Shown piece by piece: positions 14,443 to 32,606 of a DNA stretch of 46,724 nt. Below the pieces are notes generated by a model, which was not told where the DNA came from, ran no database searches, and worked only from the letters and a program-made list of their open reading frames with translations. The stretch spans positions 1-46,724 of the IMG/VR virus record IMGVR_UViG_3300009537_000027, one strand, 5' to 3'. A program made the translations under genes and the position numbers. The first letter of the stretch is position 1. Every line of letters starts with the position of its first letter. This stretch comes from a virus.

Positions 14443-14472
14443 CGAACGAGATATAGCGTCCAATCTCGTTCG
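14443..14472. promoter_or_regulatory. CGAACG dyad, putative operator
   Basis: Perfect inverted repeat CGAACGAGAT / ATCTCGTTCG with a 10-base spacer. The CGAACG cores start at 14443 and 14467, 24 bp apart. The same 24-bp spacing of CGAACG or CGTTCG occurs at three plus-strand promoters. It lies 37 bp upstream of the late -35 box, where a bound dimer could block or activate either direction. Confidence 0.65.
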
Positions 14473-14573
14473 AGTTTCCTATCAGCTTGCGGCGGAAACT
14501 GAGGGGCTATCCCCTCACACTCCCCCCGTCACTTTCCCTTGTATACCGGCGTGCCGCCGGCCTCGGGTCCCCT

Positions 14574-14589
14574 AAGTGAGTGCTCACTT
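14574..14589. promoter_or_regulatory. Short palindrome, possible operator
   Basis: AAGTGAG-TG-CTCACTT, a perfect 7-bp inverted repeat with a 2-base centre in the divergent region. No second copy was noticed. It could bind a dimeric regulator, but may be chance. Confidence 0.35.
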
Positions 14590-14705
14590 CGCAGGCGCGT
14601 GGAATGATTCTCATTCAGTGTGGGCGCTCACATCTCTACCGCACTGCAGCATCCAGTGGCATGGTGCACCTCACAAGCCAGTTACATTTTGTTACAATTT
14701 CGGCC

Positions 14706-14734
14706 TTGCTTGGTGCGTTGCACAATGGTATACT
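14706..14734 (+). promoter_or_regulatory. Early promoter
   Basis: TTGCTT at 14706-14711, 17-bp spacer, TATACT at 14729-14734: a good sigma70-type match on the plus strand. Transcription would start near 14742 and run about 240 bases before the first early gene at 14980. Confidence 0.6.
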
Positions 14735-14979
14735 GGATTCACGGTGATCGAGGCCGCAGGTTGAATCCCTACGGTACAGTCCCAAGCATAGCACGACGGT
14801 GCTCGGACCGTGATAGTAGATACCGCGCAAGCACCCGTAACAAATGCCCACGTTGGCCGCGAGGCTTGTGGTGGGGGGACATGGCGAACCTGACAACCCG
14901 CCGGCGGCAGCGGATAGCCGACACAAAGCTACGTTCGCATGGGCGGACGAGTTTATCCATAACCTGACGGAGGTTTCAG

Positions 14980-15486
14980 ATGGCAGAACGCAAGAAAGTC
15001 GTATCCTTCAAGTGGGACTTCACCGGGCGCAAGATTCATTTCCATGTGCTCGGCGGCGGGGATGCAGTGCTGGACCTGAGCAAGGTCCTCCCTGCGAACC
15101 ACCAGCGCGCGGAGTTCCACGGCTGGACGCAGAAGTGTGTGGACAAGTGCGCTATCCAGCGCGACCCCACCACGGGCAAGAGCGCCACGGCGAAGGAGAA
15201 GTTCGAGGTCCTCAAGGCGTGCGTGGATCACCTGAACGCAGGCGGCGAGTGGCTCATGCGGGGAGTGAAGGACTTGCTCGACCGCGGGGCCTTGTACCAA
15301 GCCGTCGCCACGGTGAGGGGCTTCGATCCCAAAGTCGTGGAAGCGAAGTGGCGGGACCGGCAAGACGATGTTATCAGGCAGGTCCTGACGGATCCCCTCG
15401 TGGCTGCGGAGTACACGCGGCTTACGGTGAAGGGAGATTCCAGCGGCGCGGATGCCCTGCTGGAGGAGTTCGAGGGGCTGGCGTAG
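14980..15486 (+). CDS. First early gene, conserved hypothetical; paralogue of the 21733 gene
   Basis: A 168-residue protein translated from ATG with CTGACGGAGG just upstream, a leader shared by two other first-in-unit genes. N-terminal strands (VVSFKWDFTGRKIHFHV, DAVLDLSKVL) lead to an A-EFHGWTQKCVDKCAI segment, a linker with LKACVDHLNAGGEW and a helical end (GFDPKVVEAKWRDRQDDVIRQVL, ADALLEEFEGLA). The same order, with AACHGGEQKYGDSYA, ENLNSGDW and TGALFAEL, occurs in the gene at 21733, so the two are likely paralogues. No enzyme motif was recognised. As the first early gene it may act on the host or in regulation. Confidence 0.8.
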   Translation: MAERKKVVSFKWDFTGRKIHFHVLGGGDAVLDLSKVLPANHQRAEFHGWTQKCVDKCAIQRDPTTGKSATAKEKFEVLKACVDHLNAGGEWLMRGVKDLLDRGALYQAVATVRGFDPKVVEAKWRDRQDDVIRQVLTDPLVAAEYTRLTVKGDSSGADALLEEFEGLA

Positions 15487-15494
15487 GGCCAAGT

Positions 15495-15518
15495 GGGGAG
15501 GGGCGCAAGCCTCTCCCC
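15495..15518 (+). other. Stable hairpin after the first early gene
   Basis: GGGGAGGGGC-GCAA-GCCTCTCCCC: a 10-bp stem with one mismatch and a GCAA tetraloop, nine bases after the stop of the 14980 gene. No T-run follows, so it may protect the message end or pause polymerase rather than terminate. Confidence 0.5.
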
Positions 15519-15544
15519 GCTGTTGGCACTGAGGTGAGGGTAGC

Positions 15545-15567
15545 ACTACTACTACTACTACTACTAC
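15545..15567. repeat. ACT triplet repeat
   Basis: Seven full copies of ACT plus two bases in non-coding DNA. This kind of tract is prone to slippage. Confidence 0.85.
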
Positions 15568-15615
15568 CCTGCAGCCCCCCCTATTCTATACCCGTTCGAG
15601 TATGTCCAAGTGTCC

Positions 15616-15661
15616 AAGGGACTATGATTTTGGTCCCTTAGTATGTATTATATTTTTTTTT
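15616..15661 (+). terminator. Possible terminator
   Basis: Inverted repeat AAGGGAC / GTCCCTT (15616-15622 and 15633-15639) with a 10-base loop. A run of nine T residues (15653-15661) follows after a 13-base AT-rich gap. The gap is longer than in a standard intrinsic terminator, so the call is tentative. Confidence 0.4.
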
Positions 15662-15789
15662 ACTTATAAGGGAAAGAGATACAGACCCTGGGGCACTTGG
15701 GGCATAAGGCACTTGGGGTTATCCGTTCGGACTTAGAGAAGGGGGGGCTGCAGGGTGGTGGTGGTGGTGCAAGTAGTGCTATAACTTGC

Positions 15790-15818
15790 TTGACATCTGG
15801 GTTGGAGTGTGGGAGAAT
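15790..15818 (+). promoter_or_regulatory. Promoter for the accessory operon
   Basis: TTGACA at 15790-15795, 17-bp spacer, GAGAAT at 15813-15818. Perfect -35 with a 4/6 -10, about 60 bp upstream of the gene at 15878. Confidence 0.6.
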
Positions 15819-15877
15819 GTGGGGTATGGGGGCCGGCGGTCGGCCCTTGGTGGGTGGGACCTTGATGGAGAGCGCGC

Positions 15878-16072
15878 ATGAAACCTCAATTGCAGTGTCC
15901 GAACTGCTTGCAGTTCGAGCTAGGGTTCAAAGTGCTGGTGGTGGAGAAAGAGGTAGACCACCAGCAGCAACTAACAGCAGGCCCAAACGAGACTCGGTAT
16001 TTGGGCTGCAAGGCCTTTGATTGCGCCTATGTGGGCAGAGCAGAACAGTTCTTCCCCAAGGAGGCTGCATGA
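15878..16072 (+). CDS. Small zinc-ribbon-like protein
   Basis: A 64-residue protein with CPNC at residues 7-10 and a later C-x4-C (GCKAFDCAYVG), a pattern suggesting one zinc site. ATG follows a GATGGAG site. The stop overlaps the next start (ATGA). Function unknown; it could bind nucleic acid or protein. Confidence 0.65.
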   Translation: MKPQLQCPNCLQFELGFKVLVVEKEVDHQQQLTAGPNETRYLGCKAFDCAYVGRAEQFFPKEAA

Positions 16073-16443
16073 ACACGAACCACGAAGCGCAGCACGCACC
16101 GCTTGACTTGACGCAGTTTGAAGGGCATGCGCCGGAGCCGTGGACCGCAGAACTTAACACGGCGATGCAGGGACAGCCACTCGTCGTGCTGGACGCAAAC
16201 CGCAAGCCCGTCGTCTATAGCGATGCGACCGGGCCGTATCTTGAGCGATGCACGCGCAGGACCATTTCCGAGGACGACTGGAAGCGAATGAGCCTCATCG
16301 CCGCCGCGCCCACCCTCCTCGCGGAGTGCAAGCGTCAGCGTTCCGAGCTTGCGGAGTTGCGCGACGAGGCCGCTGCGCTGCGGGAGGCGCTGGAAAAAAT
16401 CGGCACTACTCCAACGCAGCATCTTCGCTACTGGCGCGTATGA
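16069..16443 (+). CDS. Early accessory protein, unknown
   Basis: A 124-residue protein. ATG at 16069 has AAGGAGG immediately upstream. Residues 10-60 look like a small beta-rich fold (GQPLVVLDANRKPVVYSDATGPYLERC). The C-terminal third is a coiled coil (LLAECKRQRSELAELRDEAAALREALEKI). No family was recognised. The coiled-coil C-terminus resembles those of its neighbours. Confidence 0.65.
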   Translation: MNTNHEAQHAPLDLTQFEGHAPEPWTAELNTAMQGQPLVVLDANRKPVVYSDATGPYLERCTRRTISEDDWKRMSLIAAAPTLLAECKRQRSELAELRDEAAALREALEKIGTTPTQHLRYWRV

Positions 16444-16444
16444 A

Positions 16445-16567
16445 GTGCCAGACCAAACTCACGTGCTTGACCTCAAGGAAGGGGCGAAGGTGAACGTCAC
16501 GAACCATCCCAAGCGCTCGTGGTACGCCTCGATCATTCGGAAGAATGGAAGGCTGGTGGTGCTATGA
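16445..16567 (+). CDS. Very small basic protein (possible)
   Basis: An open frame of about 40 residues ending at the start of the next gene (ATGA overlap): VLDLKEGAKVNVTN, then HPKRSWYASIIRKNGRLVVL. The beta-like pattern and overlap suggest it is real, but the GTG start has no good ribosome site and the frame stays open further upstream. Confidence 0.4.
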   Translation: MPDQTHVLDLKEGAKVNVTNHPKRSWYASIIRKNGRLVVL

Positions 16568-16920
16568 GCGCCGGCGGGTACTCCCCACAAGGGCGGGCCG
16601 CCCGAGCAAGCCTCACAGAAGCCGACGTGAGGCGCATCCGGCAGCTCGGGGCAGAGGGCGTGCCCACTCGCAAGCTCGCAGACACGTACAGCATGACCCC
16701 AGAGGCCATCCGCCGTATTCTGCGCTGGGAGACTTGGCGCTGGGTCAGTGAGGAGGGAGCCGGCTTCGAGGCTCGAGCCCTGCCCCCAGACCAAGCGGCC
16801 TTGCTGGAAGAATTCATGAAGCCAAAACCACAACTTGCTGGACAACTGAACCCGAACGGAATACAATCCACAATCCCGAACGAATCGGGCAAGCCTACTG
16901 ACGGAGGTACTGGAACATGA
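16564..16920 (+). CDS. Helix-turn-helix protein, possible regulator
   Basis: A 118-residue protein. Residues about 15-58 (SLTEADVRRIRQLGAEGVPTRKLADTYSMTPEAIRRILRWETW) form a clear helix-turn-helix of the resolvase/HNH-associated type, with an R-x-I-L-R recognition helix. A flexible Pro/Asn-rich C-terminus follows. The end of the gene overlaps a promoter with paired CGAACG sites (16846-16882), so it is one candidate for the protein that reads them. It could also be a homing-endonuclease-derived DNA-binding fragment. Confidence 0.7.
   Translation: MSAGGYSPQGRAARASLTEADVRRIRQLGAEGVPTRKLADTYSMTPEAIRRILRWETWRWVSEEGAGFEARALPPDQAALLEEFMKPKPQLAGQLNPNGIQSTIPNESGKPTDGGTGT
16846..16882 (+). promoter_or_regulatory. 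Promoter with paired CGAACG operator half-sites
   Basis: Weak -35 CTGAAC (16846-16851), 17-bp spacer, CACAAT (16869-16874). CGAACG starts at 16853 just after the -35 and again at 16877, two bases after the -10. An overlapping alternative is TGGACA-N17-TACAAT at 16839-16867. The half-site layout matches the promoter at 22361. The site lies inside the end of the helix-turn-helix gene and would drive 16917 onward. Confidence 0.6.
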
Positions 16921-17093
16921 AGCTCATACTCAAGAAAGAAGTCAAGCACAGCGTGGTGTATGAGACCTCGGATGAGGGGGCTCCCTGCAAGAGCGTGTAC
17001 GTGATGAAGGAGTGGTTGCTTGCGAATGGAGCGCAGGACGTGATCCATGCCTGGCCGAAGAGCATTGAGCTGGAAGTGAAGGTGGCCGCATGA
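16917..17093 (+). CDS. Small hypothetical protein
   Basis: A 58-residue alpha/beta protein (MKLILKKEVKHSVVYETSDEG, KSVYVMKEWLLANGAQDVIHAWPKSIELEVKVAA). ATG at 16917 is preceded by CTGACGGAGG and overlaps the previous stop. Its TGA overlaps the next ATG. No family was recognised. Confidence 0.7.
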   Translation: MKLILKKEVKHSVVYETSDEGAPCKSVYVMKEWLLANGAQDVIHAWPKSIELEVKVAA

Positions 17094-17752
17094 AGATCAC
17101 CGCAGCACTCGCCGCGAAGGTTCTCAAGGTCGTTGACGCCGGGTTGGTCAATGGGCTAGGCGAACCAACTCCCGGCAAGATGTGCGTGGAGGCTGCGGTC
17201 TGCTACGCGCTCGACCTCCCTCATTCCGATCATCCGACTTGCGTGGGCGAGGCGGTGCGCGCCTTCAAGATCAGGCTGAACGATGCGCGCTGGTCGTCGG
17301 ACAAAGCGCGCACCAATGGGATGCGAAAGCTCGCCATCGCGCAACTCGGCAGCAACGAGATCGACCAAGCCGTATTCGTCAAGGAACTGACTCTCGGCAC
17401 GATAAAGAAGATTGTTCCGCTTGCCCTGCGGTGCGCGGCCAATAAGCAAAAGGAGAAGAAACACAAAGTGGCGTTAGAGGCCGCTGCTGTGCGCTGCGAG
17501 GAGGAAGGAACGAGAGAAGCCGCCGCTGCTGCCTACGCTGCCGCCTACGCTGCCTACGCCACCACCGCCGCTGCCGCTGCTGCCTACGCTGCTGCCTACG
17601 CTGCCAGCGCCGCTGCCAAAGCTGCCAGCACCGCAGACAACGCCACAACCTCCGATGAATCCCTGCTTCTCATGGCGGACATCGGCCTTGAGGCCCTCAA
17701 GAAAGCCAAGTCTCCGGGCTGCGAGTTTCTCTACTTAGCGGAGGCTGCATGA
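17090..17752 (+). CDS. Protein with alanine/tyrosine repeat tract
   Basis: A 220-residue protein. Residues 1-125 form a helical domain (MKITAALAAKVLKVVDAGLVNGLG, CVEAAVCYALDLPHSDHPTCVGEAVRAFKIRLNDARWS, IDQAVFVKELTLGTIKKIVPLALR). Residues about 140-185 are an almost pure Ala tract with Tyr every four or so residues (AAAYAAAYAAY). A short helical end (LLLMADIGLEALKKAKSPGCEFLYLAE) follows. I recall similar repeat proteins with this conserved front domain in proteobacteria and their phages, of unknown function. The tract is made of repeated GCC/GCT/TAC codons and could vary in length. Confidence 0.75.
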   Translation: MKITAALAAKVLKVVDAGLVNGLGEPTPGKMCVEAAVCYALDLPHSDHPTCVGEAVRAFKIRLNDARWSSDKARTNGMRKLAIAQLGSNEIDQAVFVKELTLGTIKKIVPLALRCAANKQKEKKHKVALEAAAVRCEEEGTREAAAAAYAAAYAAYATTAAAAAAYAAAYAASAAAKAASTADNATTSDESLLLMADIGLEALKKAKSPGCEFLYLAEAA

Positions 17753-18399
17753 GCCACGATACCCCACAGGACAGCCCAACGCCGAGGACGGATGCGCTTG
17801 CAAAAGAACTACCGCCCTATGCTGGCAAGTGGGTTGAATCCGAGGAATACGAGCAGCTTGAGCGCGAGCTTGCGGAGGTGAGCGCGTTGCTGGCGAAGAA
17901 CGAGGGCCGCGTCAAAAAAATAGTAGATGAATCGTTGCTGGAACGCGCCAAGCGAGCAGAGGCCGCGCTTGCCAACATAACAATCAGTGCTAACGCATGG
18001 GCTGAAACGTGTCGAGAGCTGGAGGACAAGATTGATTCCACCCCATCCGCAGAGGCCGCGCTTGCCGCCCTTCGCTCTGGCCGGGACGAGGCGCTGGAGG
18101 AAGCGGCAGTCTATGTTGAAACACGAGAGCTGTTGTGGTCCAAAAGCAGAAATGGCGCTAAAGAGGTTGATGACATTAAGGAATACATTGCGCGCGGCAT
18201 TCGCGGATTGAAACGCGCTCTAAAGATCGCAGCGCCACAGCCCGCGCCGGTGGATGCGGAGTTGAAAAAACTCATGCGTTTTTACAGTGTCGAAAATCTA
18301 CCCGATCTGGTGACGATTCAAAATGAACACATTGAAAAGCTGCAAGCCAAGATGCCCGCATTGCGCGACACGGAACCTCTCAATCCAAGGAAAGGCTAA
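17749..18399 (+). CDS. Ea22/Ead-like mosaic coiled-coil protein
   Basis: A 216-residue protein with a short DTPQDSPTPRTDA front. A coiled coil follows (YEQLERELAEVSALLAKNEGRVKKIVDESLLERAKRAEAALANI), then AEAALAALRSGRDEALEEAA, a module ending in ALKIAAPQ, and a helical C-terminus. The front, the RAEAALA block and the ALKIAAPQ block recur in the 18928 and 19845 genes. This design resembles phage Ea22/Ead-like early proteins of unknown function. Start overlaps the previous stop. Confidence 0.7.
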   Translation: MSHDTPQDSPTPRTDALAKELPPYAGKWVESEEYEQLERELAEVSALLAKNEGRVKKIVDESLLERAKRAEAALANITISANAWAETCRELEDKIDSTPSAEAALAALRSGRDEALEEAAVYVETRELLWSKSRNGAKEVDDIKEYIARGIRGLKRALKIAAPQPAPVDAELKKLMRFYSVENLPDLVTIQNEHIEKLQAKMPALRDTEPLNPRKG

Positions 18400-18403
18400 T
18401 CGC

Positions 18404-18817
18404 ATGGTTACGCACACAACGATGGGGCAGCCCGAGCCGCAGCCTTACAGCAAGCCTGCGGACGCTGCGGCCATAAACTCCAGCAAAGTATTTGCTGAAT
18501 CTCTGCCACTAGATTGGAACCATTTTCCTGCTGACGCAACGGAAGGTTGGGAAATGCTTTGCCGAGCAAAAGCACGATACGACCGGCTAGAGCGCGAACT
18601 CGCCGCCCTACGCGCCGGGCGATTCTCAAGCCAACCGACAGGAGAAGCCGCCGCCCTCCAGCGCACCGGGCCGAGCGAGGAAGCGAGGAAATTGCATGAC
18701 CTGCTTGGTGGAATGATCGACCAAGTTGGTCATCCTGATTTCTCACTGCGCGAATTGGTGAACGGACTTCGGGGCATCAGGGATGGACTCCTGCGCCTCG
18801 CGGGGGATAAGCCATGA
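18404..18817 (+). CDS. Early accessory protein, unknown
   Basis: About 137 residues from ATG at 18404, five bases after the previous stop; an upstream in-frame start would overlap that gene. It has a Pro/Gln-rich front, a short domain (SSKVFAESLPLDWNHFPADATEGWEML), a helix (ARYDRLERELAALRAGR) and a C-terminal helical part (EEARKLHDLLGGMIDQVGHPDFSLRELVNGLRGIRDGLLRL). The coiled-coil piece matches its neighbours in style. Confidence 0.65.
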   Translation: MVTHTTMGQPEPQPYSKPADAAAINSSKVFAESLPLDWNHFPADATEGWEMLCRAKARYDRLERELAALRAGRFSSQPTGEAAALQRTGPSEEARKLHDLLGGMIDQVGHPDFSLRELVNGLRGIRDGLLRLAGDKP

Positions 18818-18915
18818 GCGGAATGATGGTTGCCCTGCTGGTCGTCAGCGGATGCGGTCTTTTTCTGGCCGGGGTTGTTGCTGGTGTAGTTTTATTCATC
18901 TACTTCGGTGGCTAA
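18814..18915 (+). CDS. 33-residue single-pass membrane peptide
   Basis: ATG overlaps the previous stop (ATGA). Residues 4-31 are almost entirely hydrophobic (MMVALLVVSGCGLFLAGV, then VAGVVLFIYFGG), so it should span the inner membrane once. A small-protein role in the host membrane (exclusion, depolarisation or an accessory holin) is possible. Short but well placed between two genes with good start signals. Confidence 0.55.
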   Translation: MSGMMVALLVVSGCGLFLAGVVAGVVLFIYFGG

Positions 18916-18927
18916 GGAGAAGGACCG

Positions 18928-19848
18928 ATGAGCGAATCTGACCAGCAACGATACGATACCCCACAGGACAGCCCGACAGCAGACGCCTACGAAAAGGTCT
19001 GCGCTGCGCGAACGAAATGGCAGGAACGCGCCGAGCGAGCAGAGGCCGCGCTTGCCGCCGCACAAAGGTGGAAAGCGGCTGTCAATGAGTCCTTGGTAGT
19101 TAGCCGGTGTCTGAGCGAGACAAACAAGGACGACCCCGAGCGGGCGATCAACGACTTGCTCTGCCAAGCGCAGAAGGAAGCACTAGACCCGCTGATTAGT
19201 GCCGAGGCCATACGCTTGCAAGAAAAAGTGTGGAATATCGCGCTGGATAGTGCAGCGATAGTGTGTGAACTGCGCGCCTCTGTTAATTCAATGCACACAT
19301 TTGCTCAACTTCACTGGGAGGATGCGGAAGCCATCCGCGCACTCAAGATCGCAGCGCCGCAGTATGACGAAGCTACCATCAAGGCGCGAGATAACCCTGC
19401 GGACGCTGCGACTGTGGTGGTGCCGATTGACATGCTGCTTTTCTGCCCGCGCTGCCAGATGCAGCACATCGACGCACCGCAGCCTGAGCAGGGCTGGACG
19501 AACCCGCCGCACGCTACGCACACTTGCCAAGGCTGCGGCTTGATCTGGCGACCGAGTAACGCGCTGACCAACGGGGCCGCCACCATCGAGCAGCTTGAGC
19601 CGAAGCACGCCGAGCGCATCGCTGCTTCGCACCCTCCCGTCCAGTCGGAAGTCGCCGCCGCCCCGCAGCCCGGTGTTCAACGGGACGAAGCCCCTACAGT
19701 GGCTGCGTTGCCAGACGCCGCCGCGTGGGACCGGCGTCTGCATAGGTTGCTGACCGAGGTTCGTGCGACGGTGGACGACTTGGATGCGATTGCCGCCGCG
19801 CCCAGTGGCACCGAGGACAAGCGCGACGACAAGGGGAACGGCGAATGA
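18928..19848 (+). CDS. Mosaic early protein with zinc ribbon
   Basis: A 306-residue protein with AAGGAGAAGG before ATG. Modules in order: DTPQDSPT front; coiled coil with RAERAEAALAAAQRW; helix ending ALKIAAPQ; a zinc ribbon LFCPRCQMQHIDAPQP with THTCQGCGLIWRPS (two CxxC pairs) around residues 170-212; a long flexible linker; and a C-terminal helix ending DKRDDKGNGE. The zinc-ribbon block is one I recall from many proteobacterial phage early proteins. Function is unknown; nucleic-acid or protein binding is likely. Confidence 0.72.
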   Translation: MSESDQQRYDTPQDSPTADAYEKVCAARTKWQERAERAEAALAAAQRWKAAVNESLVVSRCLSETNKDDPERAINDLLCQAQKEALDPLISAEAIRLQEKVWNIALDSAAIVCELRASVNSMHTFAQLHWEDAEAIRALKIAAPQYDEATIKARDNPADAATVVVPIDMLLFCPRCQMQHIDAPQPEQGWTNPPHATHTCQGCGLIWRPSNALTNGAATIEQLEPKHAERIAASHPPVQSEVAAAPQPGVQRDEAPTVAALPDAAAWDRRLHRLLTEVRATVDDLDAIAAAPSGTEDKRDDKGNGE

Positions 19849-21660: not shown

Positions 21661-21732
21661 ACACAATCCCCCGTATTATGCGGGGAGGGAGCAGAGGGCG
21701 CGCCCTAAAGGGCCCTCACAACTGGAGGCAAC

Positions 21733-22266
21733 ATGGCAGACAATGTGGAAGTGGTGAAGATGAGCGATGGCCGCGAGGTCAGCTTTGCAGGGAAACGCAA
21801 GGCCCTCAAGTCCAGCGAGTTCGTCAACGGGGAGGTGCAGATTCGGCTGGACTTCAGGAACGGAGTCACGAAGCTCTACACCGTGCCGAAGAGTAATGTG
21901 GAGAGGGCTGCATGCCACGGAGGTGAGCAGAAGTACGGGGATTCCTACGCTGGAGTCGACGACATCGACGACATGATCGAGTGCTGCGACAAGGTGCAGG
22001 AGAACCTGAACTCCGGGGACTGGACTGCGCGGGTGGAAGGCAGCGGCATCGCCGGAACCTCTGTGCTGGCTCGTGCCCTCGTGGAGCTCACCGGCAAGGC
22101 CCCGGAAGATGTCAAGACGTTCCTGAAGGGCAAGTCCCCGGCAGACAAGATGGCACTGCGGCAAAGCAGCAAGCTTCAGCCCATCATCCAGCGCCTGGAA
22201 GCCGAGAAGGTCGCCAAGGCGTCGAAGGTGGACACCGGGGCGCTCTTCGCAGAACTGGGCGTGTAG
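21733..22266 (+). CDS. Conserved hypothetical, paralogue of the first early gene
   Basis: A 177-residue protein with ACTGGAGG upstream. N-terminal strands (MSDGREVSFAGKRKAL, VQIRLDFRNGVTKLYTV) are followed by AACHGGEQKYGDSYAGVDDIDDMIECCDKVQENLNSGDW, a helical region (LARALVELTGKAPEDVKTFLKGKSPADKMALR) and a C-terminal VDTGALFAELGV. The order of elements and the HG-x2-QK-x2-D core match the 14980 gene. Having its own promoter and terminator suggests high early expression. Function unknown. Confidence 0.8.
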   Translation: MADNVEVVKMSDGREVSFAGKRKALKSSEFVNGEVQIRLDFRNGVTKLYTVPKSNVERAACHGGEQKYGDSYAGVDDIDDMIECCDKVQENLNSGDWTARVEGSGIAGTSVLARALVELTGKAPEDVKTFLKGKSPADKMALRQSSKLQPIIQRLEAEKVAKASKVDTGALFAELGV

Positions 22267-22360: not shown

Positions 22361-22398
22361 TTGACACCGAACGGGATTCATGTCACAATTGCGTTCGG
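22361..22398 (+). promoter_or_regulatory. Promoter with paired CGAACG operator half-sites
   Basis: TTGACA (22361-22366), 17-bp spacer, CACAAT (22384-22389). CCGAACG (22367-22373) follows the -35, and the inverted copy CGTTCGG (22392-22398) follows the -10. Core starts are 24 bp apart. It drives the replication/recombination unit from 22427. Confidence 0.8.
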
Positions 22399-22426: not shown

Positions 22427-22600
22427 ATGGCCTTCAAGGCTATCTATCTAAGAATAGACCAAGCGTCTCGAGTCTCTCTCAAGCTTGGCTATCGTACTGC
22501 CCAGATCCTTCTTGAAATTCCTACGAAGCAGCTTGCTGTGCAGGCTGTACGAGCGGCCTTCGGGAAGAAGGCGCGTATTGTGGGAGGGAGAAAGCCGTGA
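22427..22600 (+). CDS. Small basic protein
   Basis: A 57-residue protein, first of the unit, with CTGACGGAGG upstream. MAFKAIYLRIDQASRVSLKLGYRTAQILLEIPTKQLAVQAVRAAF, then a Lys/Arg-rich tail. Helical and positively charged; DNA binding is possible. No family was recognised. Confidence 0.65.
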   Translation: MAFKAIYLRIDQASRVSLKLGYRTAQILLEIPTKQLAVQAVRAAFGKKARIVGGRKP

Positions 22601-23193
22601 GCCAAGACCTTGACTCCCTCCTCACAGGCGCGCTCCTTGAGCAAGCCTCCCGCACGCCCAAGAAAGCTCGCAGCCCCAATGAGAACTACAGAGCCTGCTT
22701 CACAAAGCCAGAGAATTGGCTGCTTGTGGGACAAGTCCGCCTCGTCCATGTGGAGGGGAGTGTGTACACCCTCATCGGCCTCTTCAATGAGCAGATTCAC
22801 AAGACCGTGCCGAAGTGCAGGTGGCTCACAGCCGCCGCAACCATTGATTCTGCGCTTCCCCAGAAGTCTGAAGAAGTCCGGGGTAAGCACTGGCTTCCGG
22901 ATGAAGTCCTCGGGTTCAAGCAGCGACAAGCTGAGCGCAAGCTCATCTTGGTGGTGGATCTGATCCTTGACATGGGACAGCACCTCCGTGCAGGTGCTGT
23001 GGTGTGCGAGGCCCACTTGCTGGGCGGCGGCCTCCAGAGGCTCACCCTGTGGGAGGACACAGTGTTTGAAGGCACCACTCCCCGCACGATCTTGAGACTT
23101 CCAGCAGGCCTAGATGTCCTTGAGGGCTTGCTGGGTGGGTGCAAGGTGCTTGTGTGGAGGAGTATAAACGAGGAGCTTGCTCATGGAACCTAG
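22597..23193 (+). CDS. Hypothetical protein
   Basis: A 198-residue protein from GTG overlapping the previous stop (GTGA). The front is charged (LLEQASRTPKKARSPNENYR). The middle and end are hydrophobic alpha/beta (NWLLVGQVRLVHVEGSVYTLIGLFN, KLILVVDLILDMGQHL, VVCEAHLLGGGLQRLTLW). No motif was recognised. Its place ahead of the nuclease suggests a DNA-metabolism role. Confidence 0.65.
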   Translation: MSQDLDSLLTGALLEQASRTPKKARSPNENYRACFTKPENWLLVGQVRLVHVEGSVYTLIGLFNEQIHKTVPKCRWLTAAATIDSALPQKSEEVRGKHWLPDEVLGFKQRQAERKLILVVDLILDMGQHLRAGAVVCEAHLLGGGLQRLTLWEDTVFEGTTPRTILRLPAGLDVLEGLLGGCKVLVWRSINEELAHGT

Positions 23194-23380
23194 TGTGAGC
23201 CGGCTGCAAGAACTCGAGAGCAAGATTTACTTGCTCAAGAGACAAGTCGGCTGGGAACAAGCGTTCAAGGCCGTGTTCGAGGTTTCAGTAGAGTATAGGG
23301 ATAATTTCCCTCCTGGCTTTATCACGAAGCTGCTCGCCGCCCACGAAAAGGGAGTACCTCCCGATGCCCCGACTTCGTAA
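23183..23380 (+). CDS. Small helical protein
   Basis: A 65-residue protein; ATG at 23183 with AGGAG upstream, overlapping the previous gene by 11 bases. VSRLQELESKIYLLKRQVGWEQAFKAVFEVSVEY is helical. No family was recognised. Confidence 0.6.
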   Translation: MEPSVSRLQELESKIYLLKRQVGWEQAFKAVFEVSVEYRDNFPPGFITKLLAAHEKGVPPDAPTS

Positions 23381-23639
23381 TGCTGTCCCAAGTCGGGATC
23401 TCCACATCATGCTTGCAGAGGAGGACCTCGCAAGGCTGGATCTTTACTTGTACAACGCAGCAGAGCAGCGAATTCCTCATGCAGCCCGCCAGAGATTCTT
23501 CACTGAGCGCATGAGGGAGTTCTTTACGAGGGAGAGCCTGGATCTCCACGCCTACGTGCCGGGGCTTGCGCCTGGGAGCTTGGTCTACGGACCACCGGCA
23601 CTCATTGAATTCTTGAAAGGGAGGCTCCGTGGTACTTGA
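23364..23639 (+). CDS. Small hypothetical protein
   Basis: A 91-residue, helix-rich protein (DLHIMLAEEDLARLDLYLYNAAEQRIPHAARQRFFTERMREFF). Pattern EDLARLDLYLYNAAEQRIPHAARQRF resembles an RHH-like or protein-binding helix pair. It overlaps the previous gene by 17 bases. Function unknown. Confidence 0.65.
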   Translation: MPRLRNAVPSRDLHIMLAEEDLARLDLYLYNAAEQRIPHAARQRFFTERMREFFTRESLDLHAYVPGLAPGSLVYGPPALIEFLKGRLRGT

Positions 23640-23659
23640 CCCCTTAGCTAAGGCCCCTA

Positions 23660-23869
23660 ATGTATAGTCCTGAAGACAACGCTTGCATCGCGGCATACCG
23701 GGCGAAGGCGGTTGCCGGCACCCTCACAGATGAAGAACTCAAGCACGTGGCTGTGCTTCTCCGCCAAGCTCGCTCCAGCGCAGTCGCTGCTGCCGCGAAG
23801 AAACGCCGGGCTGCCGCAACGCAGACTCGGTCCGCAGATGATCTGATAAATGAACTGGAGGGGTTGTGA
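23660..23869 (+). CDS. Small helical protein with KRR-A motif
   Basis: A 69-residue protein: ACIAAYRAKAVAGTLTDEELKHVAVLLRQAR, AAAKKRRAAATQTRS, DDLINELEGL. Small phage proteins with a similar LTDEEL-x-x-A-VLLRQ-R / DDL-x-x-L pattern are common near replication genes, with unknown function. Confidence 0.65.
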   Translation: MYSPEDNACIAAYRAKAVAGTLTDEELKHVAVLLRQARSSAVAAAAKKRRAAATQTRSADDLINELEGL

Positions 23870-24054: not shown

Positions 24055-24971
24055 GCCTCCCTTTCCCTGCAGTCTGGGACAGCTCCATGCTTGCAGCCCT
24101 TCGAAGCTGCCCCCAGAAATTCGCCCTCACTTACCTTCAGAACTGGAAGCCCCGCACAGAAAGTCACCACCTCGTGGCTGGTGGTGCCTTCGCTCGCGGG
24201 CTCGAGGTCGCTCGCAAAGCATTCTACGCAGAAGGCAAGCCCCCGGATACTGCTCTCGAGGCTGGCATCCGCGCTCTCTTCCAGGCCTATGGAGACTTCA
24301 ACCCGCCGGACGACAGCCCCAAGACTGCGGCCCGTATGGCGGGGGCTCTCGAGTTTTACTTCAGCAAGTGGCCCCTCGGTTCTGACCCAGCCGTGCCAGC
24401 GGTCCTCGGCGACCGCCTCGGTATTGAATTCAGCTTCGCAACGCCACTCCCTCTCAACCATCCAGAGACAGGAGAGCCCCTCATGTACTGCGGACGTGCA
24501 GACCAGGTCTGTGACTTCGCAGGGGGGCGGTACGTGGAAGATGATAAAACTGCTTCGCAACTTGGTGCGACTTGGTCTCGGCAATGGGACCTCCGCTCAC
24601 AGTTTACTGGCTACTGCTGGGCAGCTCGCGCTGCTGGTATTGCTGTACAAGGGGTTATCATTCGCGGTGTCAGTATTCTGAAGACCAAGTACGACTGCGC
24701 GGAGGCCATATCATATCGGCCAGAGTGGCAAGTGGAGCGCTGGCTGGGCCAAACAGTCCGAGACATCCAGCGAGCTGTGGATTGCTGGAAGGAAGGGTAC
24801 TGGGATTGGAGCCTAGACCACGCCTGCACAGAATACGGAGGCTGTGTTTTTCGACAGATCTGCCTCCTCCAAGACCCCACACCGTTCCTTGAGCTGAACT
24901 TCGAGCGCAGGTACTGGAACCCACTCACAAGAGAGGAGACAGTCCTTGGACCCCTTCCAGTCGCCGCCTAG
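24051..24971 (+). CDS. PD-(D/E)XK exonuclease, RecB/Cas4-like
   Basis: A 306-residue nuclease. ATG at 24051 overlaps the prior stop. The front has a Cys in LAALRSCPQKFALTYLQNW. The active-site region is CGRADQVCDFAGGRYVEDDKTAS, giving the D...(D/E)xK triad, followed by QFTGYCWAARAAG (Q-x-x-x-Y motif). Three more Cys lie at the end (C-x5-C-x5-C), so an Fe-S cluster like that of Cas4/AddB is likely. In phages such enzymes resect DNA for annealing or recombination. It sits upstream of the Sak4-like ATPase, a common pairing. This is not CRISPR-linked. Confidence 0.85.
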   Translation: MSLPFPAVWDSSMLAALRSCPQKFALTYLQNWKPRTESHHLVAGGAFARGLEVARKAFYAEGKPPDTALEAGIRALFQAYGDFNPPDDSPKTAARMAGALEFYFSKWPLGSDPAVPAVLGDRLGIEFSFATPLPLNHPETGEPLMYCGRADQVCDFAGGRYVEDDKTASQLGATWSRQWDLRSQFTGYCWAARAAGIAVQGVIIRGVSILKTKYDCAEAISYRPEWQVERWLGQTVRDIQRAVDCWKEGYWDWSLDHACTEYGGCVFRQICLLQDPTPFLELNFERRYWNPLTREETVLGPLPVAA

Positions 24972-27257: not shown

Positions 27258-27305
27258 CTTGAGCCCCTCTGGGCAGCGCTGCGCTGCGTTGCTCGGGGGT
27301 TTTTT
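27258..27305 (+). terminator. Likely intrinsic terminator
   Basis: GC-rich nested hairpin (GAGC 27261-27264 with GCTC 27291-27294, and GCAGCG 27273-27278 with CGCTGC 27282-27287) followed by GGGGG and T6 (27300-27305). It lies 15 bases after the stop of the 26780 gene. Confidence 0.65.
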
Positions 27306-27338
27306 CAGTCACCCACATAGGATGTCTGATAAAACCCA

Positions 27339-27584
27339 ATGGAACTAAGTGAACTAAGCACAACTCTCCTCGCAGCTAGGAAAGCTTGGTGGCAGGCTAT
27401 CTTGGACAAGGACTATCTCCTTGCGAGCTTCCTCGCGGCTGACATGGCTCGAGCAGCCCGTGCTATCTCCCTCGAAACTGAACGCCTTCATCAACAGCAA
27501 AGGAGTCTTCGTGCAGATTCTTCAGCTAGCCCTAAGCCAAATCACAATCCCTCCCTACCGCCAGCGCAAGGAGATCGAGGGTGA
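27339..27584 (+). CDS. Small helical protein
   Basis: An 81-residue protein: LSELSTTLLAARKAWWQAILDKDYLLASFLAADMARAARAISLETERLHQQQRSL, then a Pro/Ser tail. The 3' end overlaps the ParB/methyltransferase gene in another frame by 74 bases, an unusually long overlap here, so one of the two boundaries may differ. No family was recognised. Confidence 0.55.
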   Translation: MELSELSTTLLAARKAWWQAILDKDYLLASFLAADMARAARAISLETERLHQQQRSLRADSSASPKPNHNPSLPPAQGDRG

Positions 27585-28833
27585 AGCCCTGGGCGCGCTT
27601 ATGGCGAGCATTGAGGCCAACGGCTTGCTCCAGCCCATTGTGGTCAGATCCGGGCCAGATGGGAGATATACCCTCGTTGCAGGGCATAGGAGGCTCAGCG
27701 CAATATCCAATCTCGTCGGTCTCGAGACCAGAATACGTTATGGCACAGCAGAGATTGAACTTGGAAGCATCCCAGCGGTTGACTTCGGTGAGCTTGACCA
27801 GCTCGCAGCTGAAGAAGCCGAGCTTGAAGAGAACGTGCGACGAGTTGACCTTACTTGGGAGGAGCGAGCAGCTGCAACGGGGAGACTTGCTGATCTTCGA
27901 AGCAGAAAAGCGCGTGCTCTGGGTGGCGAGTCCCCCAGTGTGGGGGAGATCTCAGTTGAAGTTAGGGGATCATCTAGCGGGCCTGCTCACGAGAGTACTC
28001 GTAGAGAGCTCATTCTCGCTCCCCTCCTAGCCGCGGAAGCCCCCCACCTCAAAGGCACCAAGAGCCTTGACGAAGCGTGGAAAGCGCACCTCCGGGAAGA
28101 AGATCGCCAGAGGAACATCGCGCTCGGGCAGGCGGTAGGAGCAACCTTCGGTGCGCATAGCCATACCCTTGTTCACGATGACTGTATCCGATGGATCAGG
28201 GAATGTCCAGACAGTCAATTTGACGTTATCATCACCGATCCTCCTTACGGCGTCGGAGCGAATGACTTTGGCGACGCTGGCGGCAGACTCACTAGCCAGA
28301 CCCATAGCTATGATGATTCTCCAGAGGAATGGCAAAGACTTATTGGAGTACTTGGGGCCCACTGGTTCCGGGTAGCAAAGCCCCAGGCACACTTGTACGT
28401 GTGCTGTGACATAGATGGCTTCTCCTACGCAAGAGAGTGGCTTCGTCGGGTGGGCTGGAATGTCCACCGCACACCTCTCGTGAACTTCAAGCGAGATGGC
28501 TCCCGCGTGCCTTGGCCCCAACATGGGCCGCAGCGCAAGTGGGAGCTCGTGCTGTATGCAGAGAAAGGCCGCAGACCTGTTACCCGCATCTACCCAGATG
28601 TCATAGAGACGAAAGGAGATGAGAACCTTGGACATGGAGCCCAGAAGCCGGTGGAGCTTTATAAGAACTTGCTGGTACGCAGCGTGCGGCCTGGTGATAG
28701 TGTACTGGATTGCTTTGGTGGGACTGGTACTGTTCTCGTAGCGTGCCATGAGCTGCAGTGCAAGGCCACGTATGTGGAGGCGGAGGCAGAGTATTATGGG
28801 GTTGCAGTGAAGAGACTGGAGACTCTAGAATGA
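27511..28833 (+). CDS. ParB/Srx-like domain fused to DPPY DNA methyltransferase
   Basis: About 440 residues from GTG at 27511, with AGGAGT five bases upstream; an earlier in-frame start lies deep inside the preceding gene. Residues 1-75 are ParB-like (IPPYRQRKE, LMASIEANGLLQPIVVRSG, YTLVAGHRRLSAIS). Residues about 230-440 are an adenine/N4-cytosine methyltransferase: DVIITDPPYGVG (motif IV) comes before DSVLDCFGGTGTVLVACHE (motif I), the beta-class order. It methylates phage or host DNA, likely to avoid restriction or mark replication. ParB-methyltransferase fusions are known in phages; the target site cannot be read from sequence. No matching nuclease is nearby. Confidence 0.88.
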   Translation: MQILQLALSQITIPPYRQRKEIEGEALGALMASIEANGLLQPIVVRSGPDGRYTLVAGHRRLSAISNLVGLETRIRYGTAEIELGSIPAVDFGELDQLAAEEAELEENVRRVDLTWEERAAATGRLADLRSRKARALGGESPSVGEISVEVRGSSSGPAHESTRRELILAPLLAAEAPHLKGTKSLDEAWKAHLREEDRQRNIALGQAVGATFGAHSHTLVHDDCIRWIRECPDSQFDVIITDPPYGVGANDFGDAGGRLTSQTHSYDDSPEEWQRLIGVLGAHWFRVAKPQAHLYVCCDIDGFSYAREWLRRVGWNVHRTPLVNFKRDGSRVPWPQHGPQRKWELVLYAEKGRRPVTRIYPDVIETKGDENLGHGAQKPVELYKNLLVRSVRPGDSVLDCFGGTGTVLVACHELQCKATYVEAEAEYYGVAVKRLETLE

Positions 28834-29051
28834 GGCGAGATAAGCTGGAGGATATAGAAGCCTTGCTCGAGCGTCTGTGGGGGCACCTTGCTGTTAGCAA
28901 GGAAACTCGCCACAAGTTTTACACAGAGGGTTATAGGGAGGGGAAGAAAGCGGGCTACAGAGAAGGCCGGCAAGATGGCTTTGAGGAAGGTTTCAAAGAG
29001 GGGAAGATTTTTCCTTCGATCCATCAACCCAAAGATCCTCTCGCTGGATGA
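28830..29051 (+). CDS. Small protein with EG repeat
   Basis: A 73-residue protein, start overlapping the methyltransferase stop (ATGA). RRDKLEDIEALLERLWGHLAVSKETRHKF leads into a repeat with Gly every four residues (YTEGYREGKKAGYREGRQDG, then FEEGFKEGK). Such charged EG-x-x-x-G helices occur in small phage proteins and resemble extended amphipathic helices. It overlaps the polymerase start by four bases. Confidence 0.65.
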   Translation: MRRDKLEDIEALLERLWGHLAVSKETRHKFYTEGYREGKKAGYREGRQDGFEEGFKEGKIFPSIHQPKDPLAG

Positions 29052-31387
29052 ACGTTCCAGGGGAAGGTCCAGTCCCCGCGAGGATCATGCTCGTGGGGGA
29101 GGCTCCAGGGCGGGATGAGGAGGCCTCCGGGCATCCCTTTGTGGGTGCCAGTGGCCGCGAGCTCGACCGCATGCTCCACGAAGCGGGCTTGCTAAGGAGC
29201 GAGTGCTTCACCACCAATGTCTGCCGACACAGACCCCCTGAGAACAAGATCGAGGTCTGGCTCAGCAAGGCAAAGAAACGCGCCAGCATCCCCCAAGGCT
29301 TCGTCCCAATGAGGAACCTCCATGTCCACCCATACATCTCCCAAGGCTTTGATAATCTCCTCAGAGAAATCGAGCTTGTCAAGCCGAATGTCATTGTTGC
29401 TTTTGGAAACGTGTCCATGTGGGCACTTACAGGTAAATGGGGCATATCCAAGTGGAGGGGATCACACCTTCGTGTTGATTGGGACCAGGATGGGCCTCTC
29501 GTTCTACCGAGCTGGCACCCTGCTCATATCCTTCGGGACTGGGCCGAGCGAGCTGCCGGTGTGCGAGACCTGCGACGCGCGGCTGCCTTACAATCCGGAA
29601 GGGATGCTAGAGAGCCTCGATGGTCCTTCATTATCCGACCCACCTTTGAGCAAGCAGTAAGCACTCTCCAGATGCTGCTTGGGAGGCTTGCCGGCGGCCC
29701 CCTCAGGCTGGTGCATGATCTTGAGACTCGGGCGGGGCACATAGCCTGCAGCGGACTTGCATGGTCCAAGACAGAGGCCATCTGCATCCCTTTCATGGCT
29801 GTGGGGAGCCCGGAGGGGTACTGGAGCTTGGAGCAAGAGGCCCACCTCCTCTGGCTCCACTACCAAGTCTTGTGCCATCCTAACGCAAGGGTCGTGAACC
29901 AGAACTATCTCTACGACGCTCAGTACACCCACAGGTGGTGGTGCTTCGTGGGGAGGTTCCACCGAGACACTATGATCGCGCATCATACTGCGTTTTGCGC
30001 TCTCCCCAAGGCTGTGGACTACCAGGCCTCTCTCTACTGCGAACACTACAGGTACTGGAAGGACGATGGCCGGGACTGGGATCCAAAGGTTGGTGAGGAC
30101 CAGCTCTGGGAGTACAACTGCGTGGACTGTGTACGCACCTACGAGGTGGATGATGTTGTGTCTGCGAGTGTGGAGAGCCTCGGCCTCGGGGCAGTGAACG
30201 CTTTCCAGCAGAACCAATTCCACTGCACTCTCACCACAATGAACAGGGGGATCAGGCTTGATCCCAGAGCCAGGGACGCAATGGCAGTGGAGCTACTGCA
30301 AGAAGCGGAGGAGAAGCAAGCCTGGCTCGAGCGAGTCCTCGGCCACAGTATCAATATCAAGAGCCCCCAGCAGCTCCAAGCCCTCTTCTACGAGGATCTC
30401 AAGCAACCTATTATCTTCAACCGGAAGACCAAGAGGCCTACCCTTGACGACGATGCGCTCCAGAAAATCGCGAAGAGGGAGCCCCTCCTCGCTCCCATCA
30501 TCAAGCGAATTACAGAACTCCGAAGTATCGGGGTATTTGTTTCTACCTTTCTCAACGCGAAGCTCGACATTGACGGTCGCCTCCGTTGCTCGTTCAATCC
30601 TTGCGGGACCTATACCTTTAGGTATAGTTCAAGTAAGAACGCCTTCTGGACAGGTACTAACCTCCAGAATATACCTAAAGGCGTCGAAGCTAAAGAGCCT
30701 GAAGACTTAGAGCTACCTAACATCCGGAAGCTCTTCGTGCCAGACCCCGGCTTCACGTTCTTTGATATGGACCTGGACAGGGCGGATCTCCAAGTCGTGG
30801 TTTGGGAGGCGGAAGACAAGGAGCTTAAAGAGATGCTCCGCCTCGGTGTGGATATGCACAGTGAGAACGCCAAGCTCCTCGGCTGCCCCCGACAGCTTGC
30901 CAAGGTCTGGGTGCATGGTACGAACTACGGAGGCGGCCCCCGGACAATGGCCCAGAACTGTGGCCTCACTGTCCACACTGCAGAGAGGATGCGGGCTCGC
31001 TGGTTTGGGGCTCATCCCGGCATCGAGCGGTGGCAAGAGCGCACGGCGGCCCTCGGGACAAGCAAAGGCTACGTTGAGAATGTCTTCGGCTATCGCTGGT
31101 ATCAGTTTGATAGGTTCCACCTCCCTGATGCTCTCGCCTGGCAGCCCCAGAGTGTCGTAGGCCGGGTCATAAACACTGCCTGGCAACGCATCCACGAGGA
31201 AGCCCCCGAGATCCAAGTCCTCCTCCAAGTCCATGACTCCCTCGCGGGGCAAGTTCCCACCCACCTCATCCAGCAAGCTCTCACTACCCTCAAGAACCTC
31301 GCTCATGTAGAAGTCCCTTACTCAGATCCTCTTGTCATTCCTGTGAATATCAAGACCAGCGAGGAGTCTTGGGGTGCCTGCAGATAA
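29048..31387 (+). CDS. Uracil-DNA-glycosylase-like domain fused to DNA polymerase I (family A)
   Basis: A 779-residue protein. Residues 12-170 are family 4/5 UDG-like: VGEAPGRDEEASGHPFVGASG at 16-36, TTNVCRHRPPEN at 55-66, and SWHPAHILRD at 155-164; the usual Fe-S cysteines are missing. Residues about 220-375 are a 3'-5' exonuclease with D224/E226, NQNYLYD at 284-290 and YNCVDCVRTYEVD. Residues about 430-779 are the polymerase: motif A FFDMDLDRADLQ (D575), motif B R615-K619-H623-Y627, and motif C QVHDS. It replicates phage DNA. The UDG part may remove or sense uracil; a UDG-like domain is also known on SPO1 DNA polymerase. Positions matching E. coli E710, F762 and E883 are D580, H623 and S. 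Confidence 0.92.
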   Translation: MNVPGEGPVPARIMLVGEAPGRDEEASGHPFVGASGRELDRMLHEAGLLRSECFTTNVCRHRPPENKIEVWLSKAKKRASIPQGFVPMRNLHVHPYISQGFDNLLREIELVKPNVIVAFGNVSMWALTGKWGISKWRGSHLRVDWDQDGPLVLPSWHPAHILRDWAERAAGVRDLRRAAALQSGRDAREPRWSFIIRPTFEQAVSTLQMLLGRLAGGPLRLVHDLETRAGHIACSGLAWSKTEAICIPFMAVGSPEGYWSLEQEAHLLWLHYQVLCHPNARVVNQNYLYDAQYTHRWWCFVGRFHRDTMIAHHTAFCALPKAVDYQASLYCEHYRYWKDDGRDWDPKVGEDQLWEYNCVDCVRTYEVDDVVSASVESLGLGAVNAFQQNQFHCTLTTMNRGIRLDPRARDAMAVELLQEAEEKQAWLERVLGHSINIKSPQQLQALFYEDLKQPIIFNRKTKRPTLDDDALQKIAKREPLLAPIIKRITELRSIGVFVSTFLNAKLDIDGRLRCSFNPCGTYTFRYSSSKNAFWTGTNLQNIPKGVEAKEPEDLELPNIRKLFVPDPGFTFFDMDLDRADLQVVVWEAEDKELKEMLRLGVDMHSENAKLLGCPRQLAKVWVHGTNYGGGPRTMAQNCGLTVHTAERMRARWFGAHPGIERWQERTAALGTSKGYVENVFGYRWYQFDRFHLPDALAWQPQSVVGRVINTAWQRIHEEAPEIQVLLQVHDSLAGQVPTHLIQQALTTLKNLAHVEVPYSDPLVIPVNIKTSEESWGACR

Positions 31388-32570
31388 TCGGAACTTTGAT
31401 GACTGGTTAGGAGAATTCCTTGAATATAGCTCATATTCTGAAGCGCCCAAGCGGATGCGTTTCTGGTGTGGTGTTTCAGCCCTGGCCGGGGCACTTCGTC
31501 GCCGGGTGTGGCTTGATATGGCGTACTTCAAGTGGACACCCAATTTTTTCATCATCCTCGTGGCTCCCCCTGGAATTGTATCTAAGTCTACCACCGCTGG
31601 AGTCGCTATCAACCTTCTCCGTAAGGTGCCCGGGATCAAGTTTGGTCCTGATGTTTGTACATGGCAGAGCCTTGTGAAGAGCTTGAGCGAGAGCCAGGAG
31701 CAATTCCAGATCAACGGGTATGATGCCTTGACAGCCGCCGAGATCACCATTGAGAGTGGGGAGCTTGGGAACCTCCTCAACCCACAGGACAGAGAAATGG
31801 TGGACCTCCTTGTGACCTTGTGGGATGGTCGAGCAGTTTTTAACAAAACAACCAAGATGAGTGGCTCAGAGACTATAGAGAACCCTTGGATCAACATCAT
31901 TGCCTGCACGACTCCGAGCTGGATTTCAGGAAACTTCCCCGAGTACATGATTGGAGGTGGCTTCACCTCTCGCTGTGTATTCATCTACGCTGATGTGAAG
32001 GAGAAATACGTTGCATATCCTGCCTTGCAAGTACCTGTTGGCCTTGGAGAAACCCAAAGGAAGCTCGTTCAAGATCTCGAGAGAATCTCTCTTCTCGCCG
32101 GACCCTTCCGCCTCCTTCCAAGTGCTGTCGAGTGGGGGAACGCCTGGTACAAGCACCACTACGAGAATCGCCCGAAGGAACTGGATGATGATCGCTTCGG
32201 TGGTTACATCGCGAGGAAGCAGACCCACCTCCACAAGCTTGCGATGGTGCTCTCGGCAAGCCAACGTGGGGACCTTACCCTCACGGTGGAGGACCTGGCG
32301 GCGGCGAACACGATGATAAGTGATCTTGAGCTCGACATGCCGAAGGTATTTGCTCGCATAGGCAAGACAGAAGCCGGCGCTCACCTCGACCGCTTTGTAA
32401 GCTTCGTACGAGGCCAGGGAGCTGTCTCCTACGAGCAAGCCTTCCGCTTCTTGCAAGCCCACTTCCCGGCGGACAAAGATATGGAGGGAGCTCTGGCGGG
32501 CCTTCTCAAAAGCGGTATCCTCCGCATAGAGAACATTGGCGGCACCCTTGTAATTAGGCACAACACTTAA
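31374..32570 (+). CDS. DUF3987-like P-loop protein, possible helicase/primase component
   Basis: A 398-residue protein from GTG overlapping the polymerase stop by 14 bases. A P-loop-like APPGIVSKSTT lies at residues 64-74 (K71), with Ser where the second Gly is usual. TAAEITIESGELGNLL and PWINIIACTTPSWI resemble Walker B and sensor segments of DUF3987-type phage proteins. The C-terminal part is helical with winged-helix character (GAVSYEQAFRFLQAHF, GALAGLLKSGILRIENIGG). Next to the polymerase it probably helps unwind DNA or load the replication complex. It could also be an atypical ATPase with another role. Confidence 0.72.
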   Translation: MPADNRNFDDWLGEFLEYSSYSEAPKRMRFWCGVSALAGALRRRVWLDMAYFKWTPNFFIILVAPPGIVSKSTTAGVAINLLRKVPGIKFGPDVCTWQSLVKSLSESQEQFQINGYDALTAAEITIESGELGNLLNPQDREMVDLLVTLWDGRAVFNKTTKMSGSETIENPWINIIACTTPSWISGNFPEYMIGGGFTSRCVFIYADVKEKYVAYPALQVPVGLGETQRKLVQDLERISLLAGPFRLLPSAVEWGNAWYKHHYENRPKELDDDRFGGYIARKQTHLHKLAMVLSASQRGDLTLTVEDLAAANTMISDLELDMPKVFARIGKTEAGAHLDRFVSFVRGQGAVSYEQAFRFLQAHFPADKDMEGALAGLLKSGILRIENIGGTLVIRHNT

Positions 32571-32606
32571 TTGACGCGAACGAAATATTCATGCATACTA
32601 CGAACG
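32571..32606 (+). promoter_or_regulatory. Promoter with paired CGAACG half-sites, start of the sugar cassette
   Basis: TTGACG (32571-32576), 17-bp spacer, CATACT (32594-32599). CGAACG starts at 32577 right after the -35 and again at 32601 right after the -10, 24 bp apart in direct orientation. It would drive the heptose cassette. Confidence 0.7.

Follow-up and report, generated by a model that had tools for sequence, protein, structure and literature searches.

Do hexamers repeated at a fixed distance along the control regions of a virus mark the operators of one regulator and, if so, which protein reads them? The question is raised by the IMG/VR virus record IMGVR_UViG_3300009537_000027, a stretch of 46,724 bp that was analysed at its whole length and is referred to below as the window. 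It contains 25 copies of the hexamer CGAACG or its complement CGTTCG; the only copies that lie less than 100 bp from one another form four pairs, each with a spacing of exactly 24 bp. From comparison of the sequence with that of related phages, these sites are probably operators of a phage-encoded ribbon-helix-helix (RHH) regulator, the putative product of gene 23364-23639.

The 30-bp dyad in the window and in related phages

The four pairs start at 14443/14467 and 22368/22392, where the two hexamers are inverted, and at 16853/16877 and 32577/32601, where they are direct. All were found where an initial annotation of the window had placed them. The same annotation held that such a repeated spacing is unlikely by chance and proposed that hexamer pairs be counted at each spacing, with shuffled controls; this count was made and bears the claim out. 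No 24-bp pair of CGAACG appeared in any of 300 first-order Markov shuffles of the window, and the Poisson probability of the four pairs is 8e-11, which ranks second among all combinations of hexamer and spacing in the window. The top fixed-spacing signal is an alanine-rich coding repeat (GCTGCC at 21-bp spacing, 17517-17640) that is unrelated to the operators. The same blind scan was applied to the closest relative of the window, IMGVR_UViG_3300049893_002819 (G001), whose large terminase is 80% identical. There CGAACG at 24 bp ranks first, with three exact pairs (24654, 36155 and 42303), two of which sit at homologous places, before the homologue of 22597 and after the primase gene. This independent replication supports the signal as real.

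When aligned, all four sites of the window are one 30-bp dyad, in which two inverted copies of CGWWCG-n-RATW flank a centre of 8 bp. It may also be written CGWWCG-n-GATW-N8-WATC-n-CGWWCG, the outer half-sites being exactly 24 bp apart. Since the half-site may carry either AA or TT at its middle, the difference between direct and inverted orientation is superficial; the initial annotation was right about the sites, but the distinction that it drew between them falls away, as every site is the same inverted repeat.

A weight matrix was trained on seven exact sites, four from the window and three from G001. In the window it recovered seven sites (14443, 22368, 16853, 32577, 4574, 13091 and 40987) with scores from 33.5 to 22.1, the next best score being 8.0 and shuffles reaching at most 13.0; in G001 it again recovered seven, from 30.7 to 17.1, with 10.2 for the next and at most 16.4 in shuffles. 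The scores are thus bimodal in both genomes. Since the matrix was trained on some of the sites that it scored, the informative sites are those outside the training set, which in the window are the three beyond the original four: 4574, 13091 and 40987.

The strong sigma-70-like promoters of the window phage read TTGACA-17-CACAAT. One of these, at 22361-22389 on the plus strand, is covered by the dyad CGAACGGGATTCATGTCACAATTGCGTTCG (22368-22397, plus strand), which lies upstream of an early gene run (22427-23869, plus strand) that includes the RHH gene; the homologous site and promoter are present in G001 at 24654. The dyad at 32577-32606 (plus strand) directly follows the primase gene and lies over the promoter TTGACG 32571-17-CATACT, and its homologue in G001 is the dyad at 36155. 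The dyad at 16853-16882 (plus strand) overlaps the promoter TGGACA 16839-17-TACAAT, which ends at 16867, and stands 35 bp before a small gene at 16917. For these three sites the initial annotation had placed one half-site right after the -35 and the other right after the -10. This register holds at 22368 and at 32577, which differ from each other by 1 bp, but not at 16853, where the better promoter is in another register. The fourth site, 14443-14472, has the late (terminase) transcription unit on one side and the early unit on the other. It is near a control region, as had been claimed, but overlaps no promoter; the -35 of a leftward late promoter, TTGACA-17-CACAAT (14378-14406, minus strand), is 36 bp downstream of it, and this promoter precedes the putative small terminase gene. 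Degenerate dyads occur at the corresponding place in G001 (21305) and in the phage L112 (1163 and 1208). No dyad accompanies the promoters at 15790 and 21632, which shows that the dyad is not a promoter element.

Of the sites added by the matrix, that at 4574-4603 has one imperfect outer hexamer; it is 13 bp before the start of gene 4175-4561 (minus strand) and inside the end of gene 4548-6149 (minus strand), with homologues at 5409 in G001 and 11106 in L112. The operator-like dyad at 13091-13120 is inside the terminase large-subunit gene (YGRDSNVYRVRV) and is also present in G001 and L112. Its conservation may be driven in part by the protein, this being a conserved stretch of the terminase; the site was at first dismissed on that ground and was brought back into consideration by its matrix score. 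The operator-like dyad at 40987-41016, near the start of gene 39200-41116 (minus strand), is the weakest of the seven.

The blind hexamer scan was repeated on a family set of 80 viral loci, collected by a homologue of the conserved protein p21733, which is encoded immediately upstream of the 22368 dyad (21733-22266, plus strand). Significant repeated hexamer pairs in the family concentrate at even spacings of 12-24, as one nested 30-bp dyad predicts, and many family phages carry a repeated 30-bp dyad of their own, with the same geometry, an inner ATTA...TAAT and a phage-specific outer sequence: CACCCGCATTA, CGCACGGATTA, TGCGCACATTA, CCCGGGGATTA, CGACCGGA(C/T)TA, TGTAGGAATTA, TACCGCGATTA and others. 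In the window and G001 the inner element is GATW at positions 8-11, one base nearer the centre than the ATTA of the relatives. In a search anchored on the inner ATTA/TAAT, 66 of 160 records scored higher than any of 160 shuffled ones. The p21733 homologue is followed, at a distance of about 100-450 bp, by a dyad in 42 records listed, the window and G001 included, and the deposited genome MW202489.1 also has such dyads, one of them about 146 bp after its p21733 homologue (at relaxed thresholds). The centre of the dyad is non-coding at 69% of 231 sites, against 13% of random positions (with an approximate gene caller), and the median distance from these sites to the nearest downstream start is 86 bp. 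Furthermore, promoter matches that overlap the dyad are enriched about 20 times in the family, and at 23 family sites the -35 starts exactly 6 bp before the dyad, so that it ends where the dyad begins.

Searches made without the anchor, phage by phage, mixed true dyads with GC-rich coding noise, and shuffled controls gave clusters of similar size; the dyad counts therefore rest on the anchored search. The CCCGGG pairs of L048 (the same contig as L411) were first set aside as a terminator-like hairpin and were later explained as a family operator. At 5116 and 10946 in L412 there are CGTTCG-type pairs at 24 bp that score below the cut-off used. A dyad scan of 85,000 bacterial and archaeal genomes used a pattern that proved too loose; among the matches listed, the taxa were scattered and were treated as chance. 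The same pattern gave 40 viral matches, of which the multi-site cases, L199 and L225, are a coding tandem repeat (SPNG...) and not operators; in L225 the repeat belongs to a phage protein encoded at 8053-9285 and built of tandem SPNGxxxP units, and the resemblance of its DNA to the dyad is fortuitous.

A candidate RHH regulator and its proposed action

Gene 23364-23639 (plus strand) encodes a protein (MPRLRNAVPSRDLHIMLAEEDLARL...) of 91 amino acids with a 58-residue core, for which the ribbon contacts are predicted to be D12, H14 and M16. Members of its family, of about 60-90 amino acids and of the form M-x-RPK...VEKNISLPEDLVARVDLELYSELEGRVPHGA..., were found in 34 of 36 phages, and exactly one copy is present in each of 20 full records tested. 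The pattern of strand, helix and helix, which follows a conserved basic N-terminal arm (M-x-RPK), suggests RHH, and the protein probably belongs to this superfamily, a known fold class. The ribbon and the second helix (helix B) align in register with those of EndoAI, an RHH antitoxin, with a weak E value (0.36), and the member from L416 matches Pfam RHH_1 with E 7.7e-4 and RHH_5 with E 0.1. The best match to an RHH model in NCBIfam is that of NikR (E 0.056, one member only); no family stands above noise in PHROGs or NCBIfam, and a hand-written consensus query, used once, retrieved nothing from Pfam or PHROG. An AF2 model built on a 33-sequence alignment has extended residues up to 18 and helices at 19-29 and 41-61, with a pLDDT of 92; Foldseek on this monomer was uninformative except for family members in BFVD. 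MW202489 is the single related deposited genome with a recognisable regulator, which is annotated there as hypothetical.

If this protein reads the dyad, the residues of its ribbon should vary with the operator. In 42 non-redundant phages the similarity of operators over the outer seven positions was compared with column identity in four protein families, with relatedness controlled through two other proteins. Of 713 columns, RHH position 12 (D12 in the window) scores highest (r 0.35, permutation p 5e-4), and the ribbon triplets 10/12/14 and 12/14/16 rank first and second among 524 alternating triplets. Once relatedness and all other positions of the RHH protein are accounted for, the triplet 12/14/16 still correlates with the operator (r 0.24, p 3e-4); those other positions contribute nothing further (p 0.18). 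Alternating strand residues set DNA specificity in RHH proteins, and the co-variation of 12/14/16 agrees with this trait in statistical, not biochemical, terms. Particular residues go with particular operators: of the phages with E12 together with N, T or S at 14, 10 of 10 have operators that start with CC, against 6 of 32 of the others, and K14 goes with CG[AC]C[CG]G operators in 5 of 6 against 0 of 36. The triplet D-H-M accompanies a CGNNCG operator in the window, in G001 and in the distant L376, which ranks only 34th of 41 in relatedness to the window.

Since the sites cover promoters, repression is the most natural reading, and we infer that the protein is most likely an autoregulating repressor of early and middle promoters. 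Two RHH dimers would lie about 24 bp apart, one on each outer hexamer (CGWWCG here), which the two-stranded ribbon of the dimer would read in the major groove, and the conserved basic arm would reach the conserved AT-rich inner element. The bound protein would then block RNA polymerase at the -35/-10 region and so repress early and middle promoters. Autoregulation would act through the 22361 promoter, which should transcribe 22427-23869 and with it the RHH gene. In 20 records neither a tyrosine integrase nor an HTH_3 (cI-type) repressor was found (serine integrases were not searched for), and it is therefore more likely that the regulator times gene expression in lytic growth than that it maintains lysogeny.

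The initial annotation had foreseen a regulon under repression but named other binders: the helix-turn-helix (HTH) proteins at 16564 or 21026, or a host factor. The multi-site operator family that covers promoters stands, whereas the named regulators do not, and as an account of these sites they are very improbable. Both proteins are small, HTH-like and encoded in the early region, and the G001 homologue of 16564 covers the HTH; among the relatives fetched, however, G001 alone has 16564 and none has 21026, whereas the operator geometry is family-wide. A host factor would not produce an operator that is specific to each phage and varies along with a phage protein, and in the broad genome scan the dyad was scattered over taxa, among the matches listed, as by chance. 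The better candidate for the binder is the RHH-like protein, from its distribution and co-variation. The HTH/Cys-rich gene 32591-32908, which starts inside the 32577 dyad, was also considered and rejected: in the phage G002 its HTH is nearly unchanged and there is no dyad there. It is unlikely, too, that the operators are real but bound by some other phage protein, above all p21733, whether by itself or in partnership with the RHH protein. This protein is present in every phage of the set, just upstream of the conserved dyad, and its overall identity correlates with operator similarity even without the RHH triplet (r 0.20-0.27); no DNA-binding domain was detected in it, and in the RHH protein the operator signal is found only on the strand predicted to contact DNA, where it is stronger than at any single column or alternating triplet of p21733.

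That the dyads are RNA hairpins or terminators instead of protein-binding sites is scarcely credible. The stem at 14443 is nearly perfect over 10 bp, and the post-primase dyad of L048 extends into a long terminator-like stem, but the outer half-sites at 16853 and 32577 are direct (CGAACG...CGAACG), which makes full pairing impossible; no T run follows, and the sites cover promoters rather than follow genes. A further alternative concerns the action of the RHH protein, which could be a dual switch, repressing the early promoters that it overlaps and activating late promoters from upstream. Such a combination is known from phi29 p4 (PMC3100819), and AmrZ is an RHH protein that both represses and activates (PMC3325190). 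As read from an alignment, the dyad stands upstream of the -35 of the terminase promoter by 36 bp in the window, by 37 bp in G001 and by 25 bp in L112. Across the family, a promoter follows 20-60 bp past the dyad at 26 sites, and only 2 of these 26 overlap a promoter as well. Against this, the distances from dyad to promoter vary in the family without clear helical phasing, and the late promoter of L112 is itself overlapped by another degenerate dyad (again by alignment). The dual switch is doubtful.

Several points weigh against an RHH regulator acting at these operators. The RHH_1 match of the L416 member, at 19.8 bits, is just under the cut-off of 20.5; RHH_1 is matched by 2 of 33 members, most having no match, the protein of the window itself among the latter for Pfam as a whole. 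The AF2 model is a monomer without strand pairing, and an RHH ribbon cannot form in a monomer; a Foldseek/VIA search of the PDB gave no useful match, and we infer the fold. The window and G001 failed the anchored search, their inner element being one base off, and the operators of the window, G001 and L376 were entered by hand, those of the first two from exact pairs and the five sites of L376 from an unanchored search. The Fisher tests on the E12 and K14 patterns were not corrected for phylogeny. The triplet pattern had been seen in a smaller, largely overlapping set before it was tested, and the rankings over whole columns and alternating triplets are therefore the less biased evidence. With the triplet taken out, p21733 still shows a correlation with operator similarity (r 0.20, p 0.009), behind which a second factor or residual phylogeny is possible. 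Finally, the promoter that follows the primase gene of G002 is not accompanied by a dyad.

Other features of the window

At 32591-32943 are two overlapping frames. That at 32591-32908 has a conserved Cys-rich N-terminus and an HTH (LVCQPPL.FCC...ARLGLDTRTVR.WRARW), and that at 32632-32943 has a conserved C-terminus (WT.YGRWS.DG..V.N..G.VIYE.P); the frames are arranged alike in G001 and G002, which suggests programmed frameshifting. The region 32930-38336 carries metabolic and surface genes (a PfkB-like kinase, a thiamine-pyrophosphate enzyme, a radical SAM/SPASM protein and a glycosyltransferase) that are partly common to G001 and G002. A ParB N-terminal domain is fused to an N6/N4 DNA methyltransferase at 27421-28833. 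The conserved early proteins 14980-15486 and 21733-22266 form one similarity cluster with members in 36 of 36 phages compared. A shared ribosome-binding box, AACCTGACGGAGG or CTGACGGAGG, precedes genes at 14961, 16899 and 22409 in the window and at 21726 and 24695 in G001; AACCTGACGGAGG, which lies downstream of some sites, was considered as a part of the operator system and rejected, as its copies are too few.

Comparison with known systems

RHH proteins are common, and their recognition rules are known from few examples. The phages described here offer about 40 distinct protein-operator pairs of one geometry, the main differences being at three residues of the ribbon and at six to seven bases of the operator, and this makes a recognition code of the beta-ribbon directly testable. 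A set of mutually independent repressors may exist. The broader picture is tentative: widespread and probably lytic phages might share one RHH family of fixed geometry and near lineage-specific specificity, amounting to orthogonal pairs or a readable code, with late promoters also switched on. For this group of phages, hardly known outside metagenomes, the analysis also provides a regulator and an operator map. Why operator specificity should change so quickly in apparently non-temperate phages is a further question that it raises.

The protein resembles Arc, RelB and other RHH antitoxins (PMC2812701) in being, by prediction, a small beta-alpha-alpha protein with an operator over a promoter and probable autoregulation, and alternating ribbon residues would be expected to read pseudo-palindromic hexads in the same manner. 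On relO, two dimers lie close together on adjacent subsites, whereas here the outer subsites are 24 bp apart; further differences from Arc and RelB are the conserved inner AT element, the conserved basic RPK arm, the several sites per genome and the toxin partner, none being seen here. NikR, with the operator GTATGA-N16-TCATAC (PMC7055735), is likewise an RHH protein that reads outer half-sites far apart, at 22 bp from start to start by our own arithmetic against 24 bp here. In NikR, however, the spacing is set by a tetrameric, nickel-binding C-terminal domain of the ACT-like kind, which the 91-residue protein lacks; no NikR match was significant, and dependence on a metal is not implied.

The repressors and stoperators of cluster A mycobacteriophages (PMC6550527, PMC9283540) are similar in that several sites are dispersed through the genome, some of them intragenic, and change in sequence with the repressor. 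They differ in that a monomeric two-domain repressor reads an asymmetric site in temperate phages, whereas the sites here are long dyads of 30 bp paired with an RHH-like protein, in phages in which no tyrosine integrase or HTH_3 repressor was found. As with phi29 p4 (PMC3100819), the sites described here would belong to an early phage protein, some covering early promoters and others standing upstream of a late one; activation, unlike in phi29, is here a positional hint only, and similarity between the two proteins was neither looked for nor found. Within the scope of an open-access literature library, what is known already is the RHH fold class and, from the cluster A mycobacteriophages, dispersed phage operators that drift with their repressor; what is new is the family of RHH-like proteins, the 30-bp geometry and the co-variation of strand and operator.

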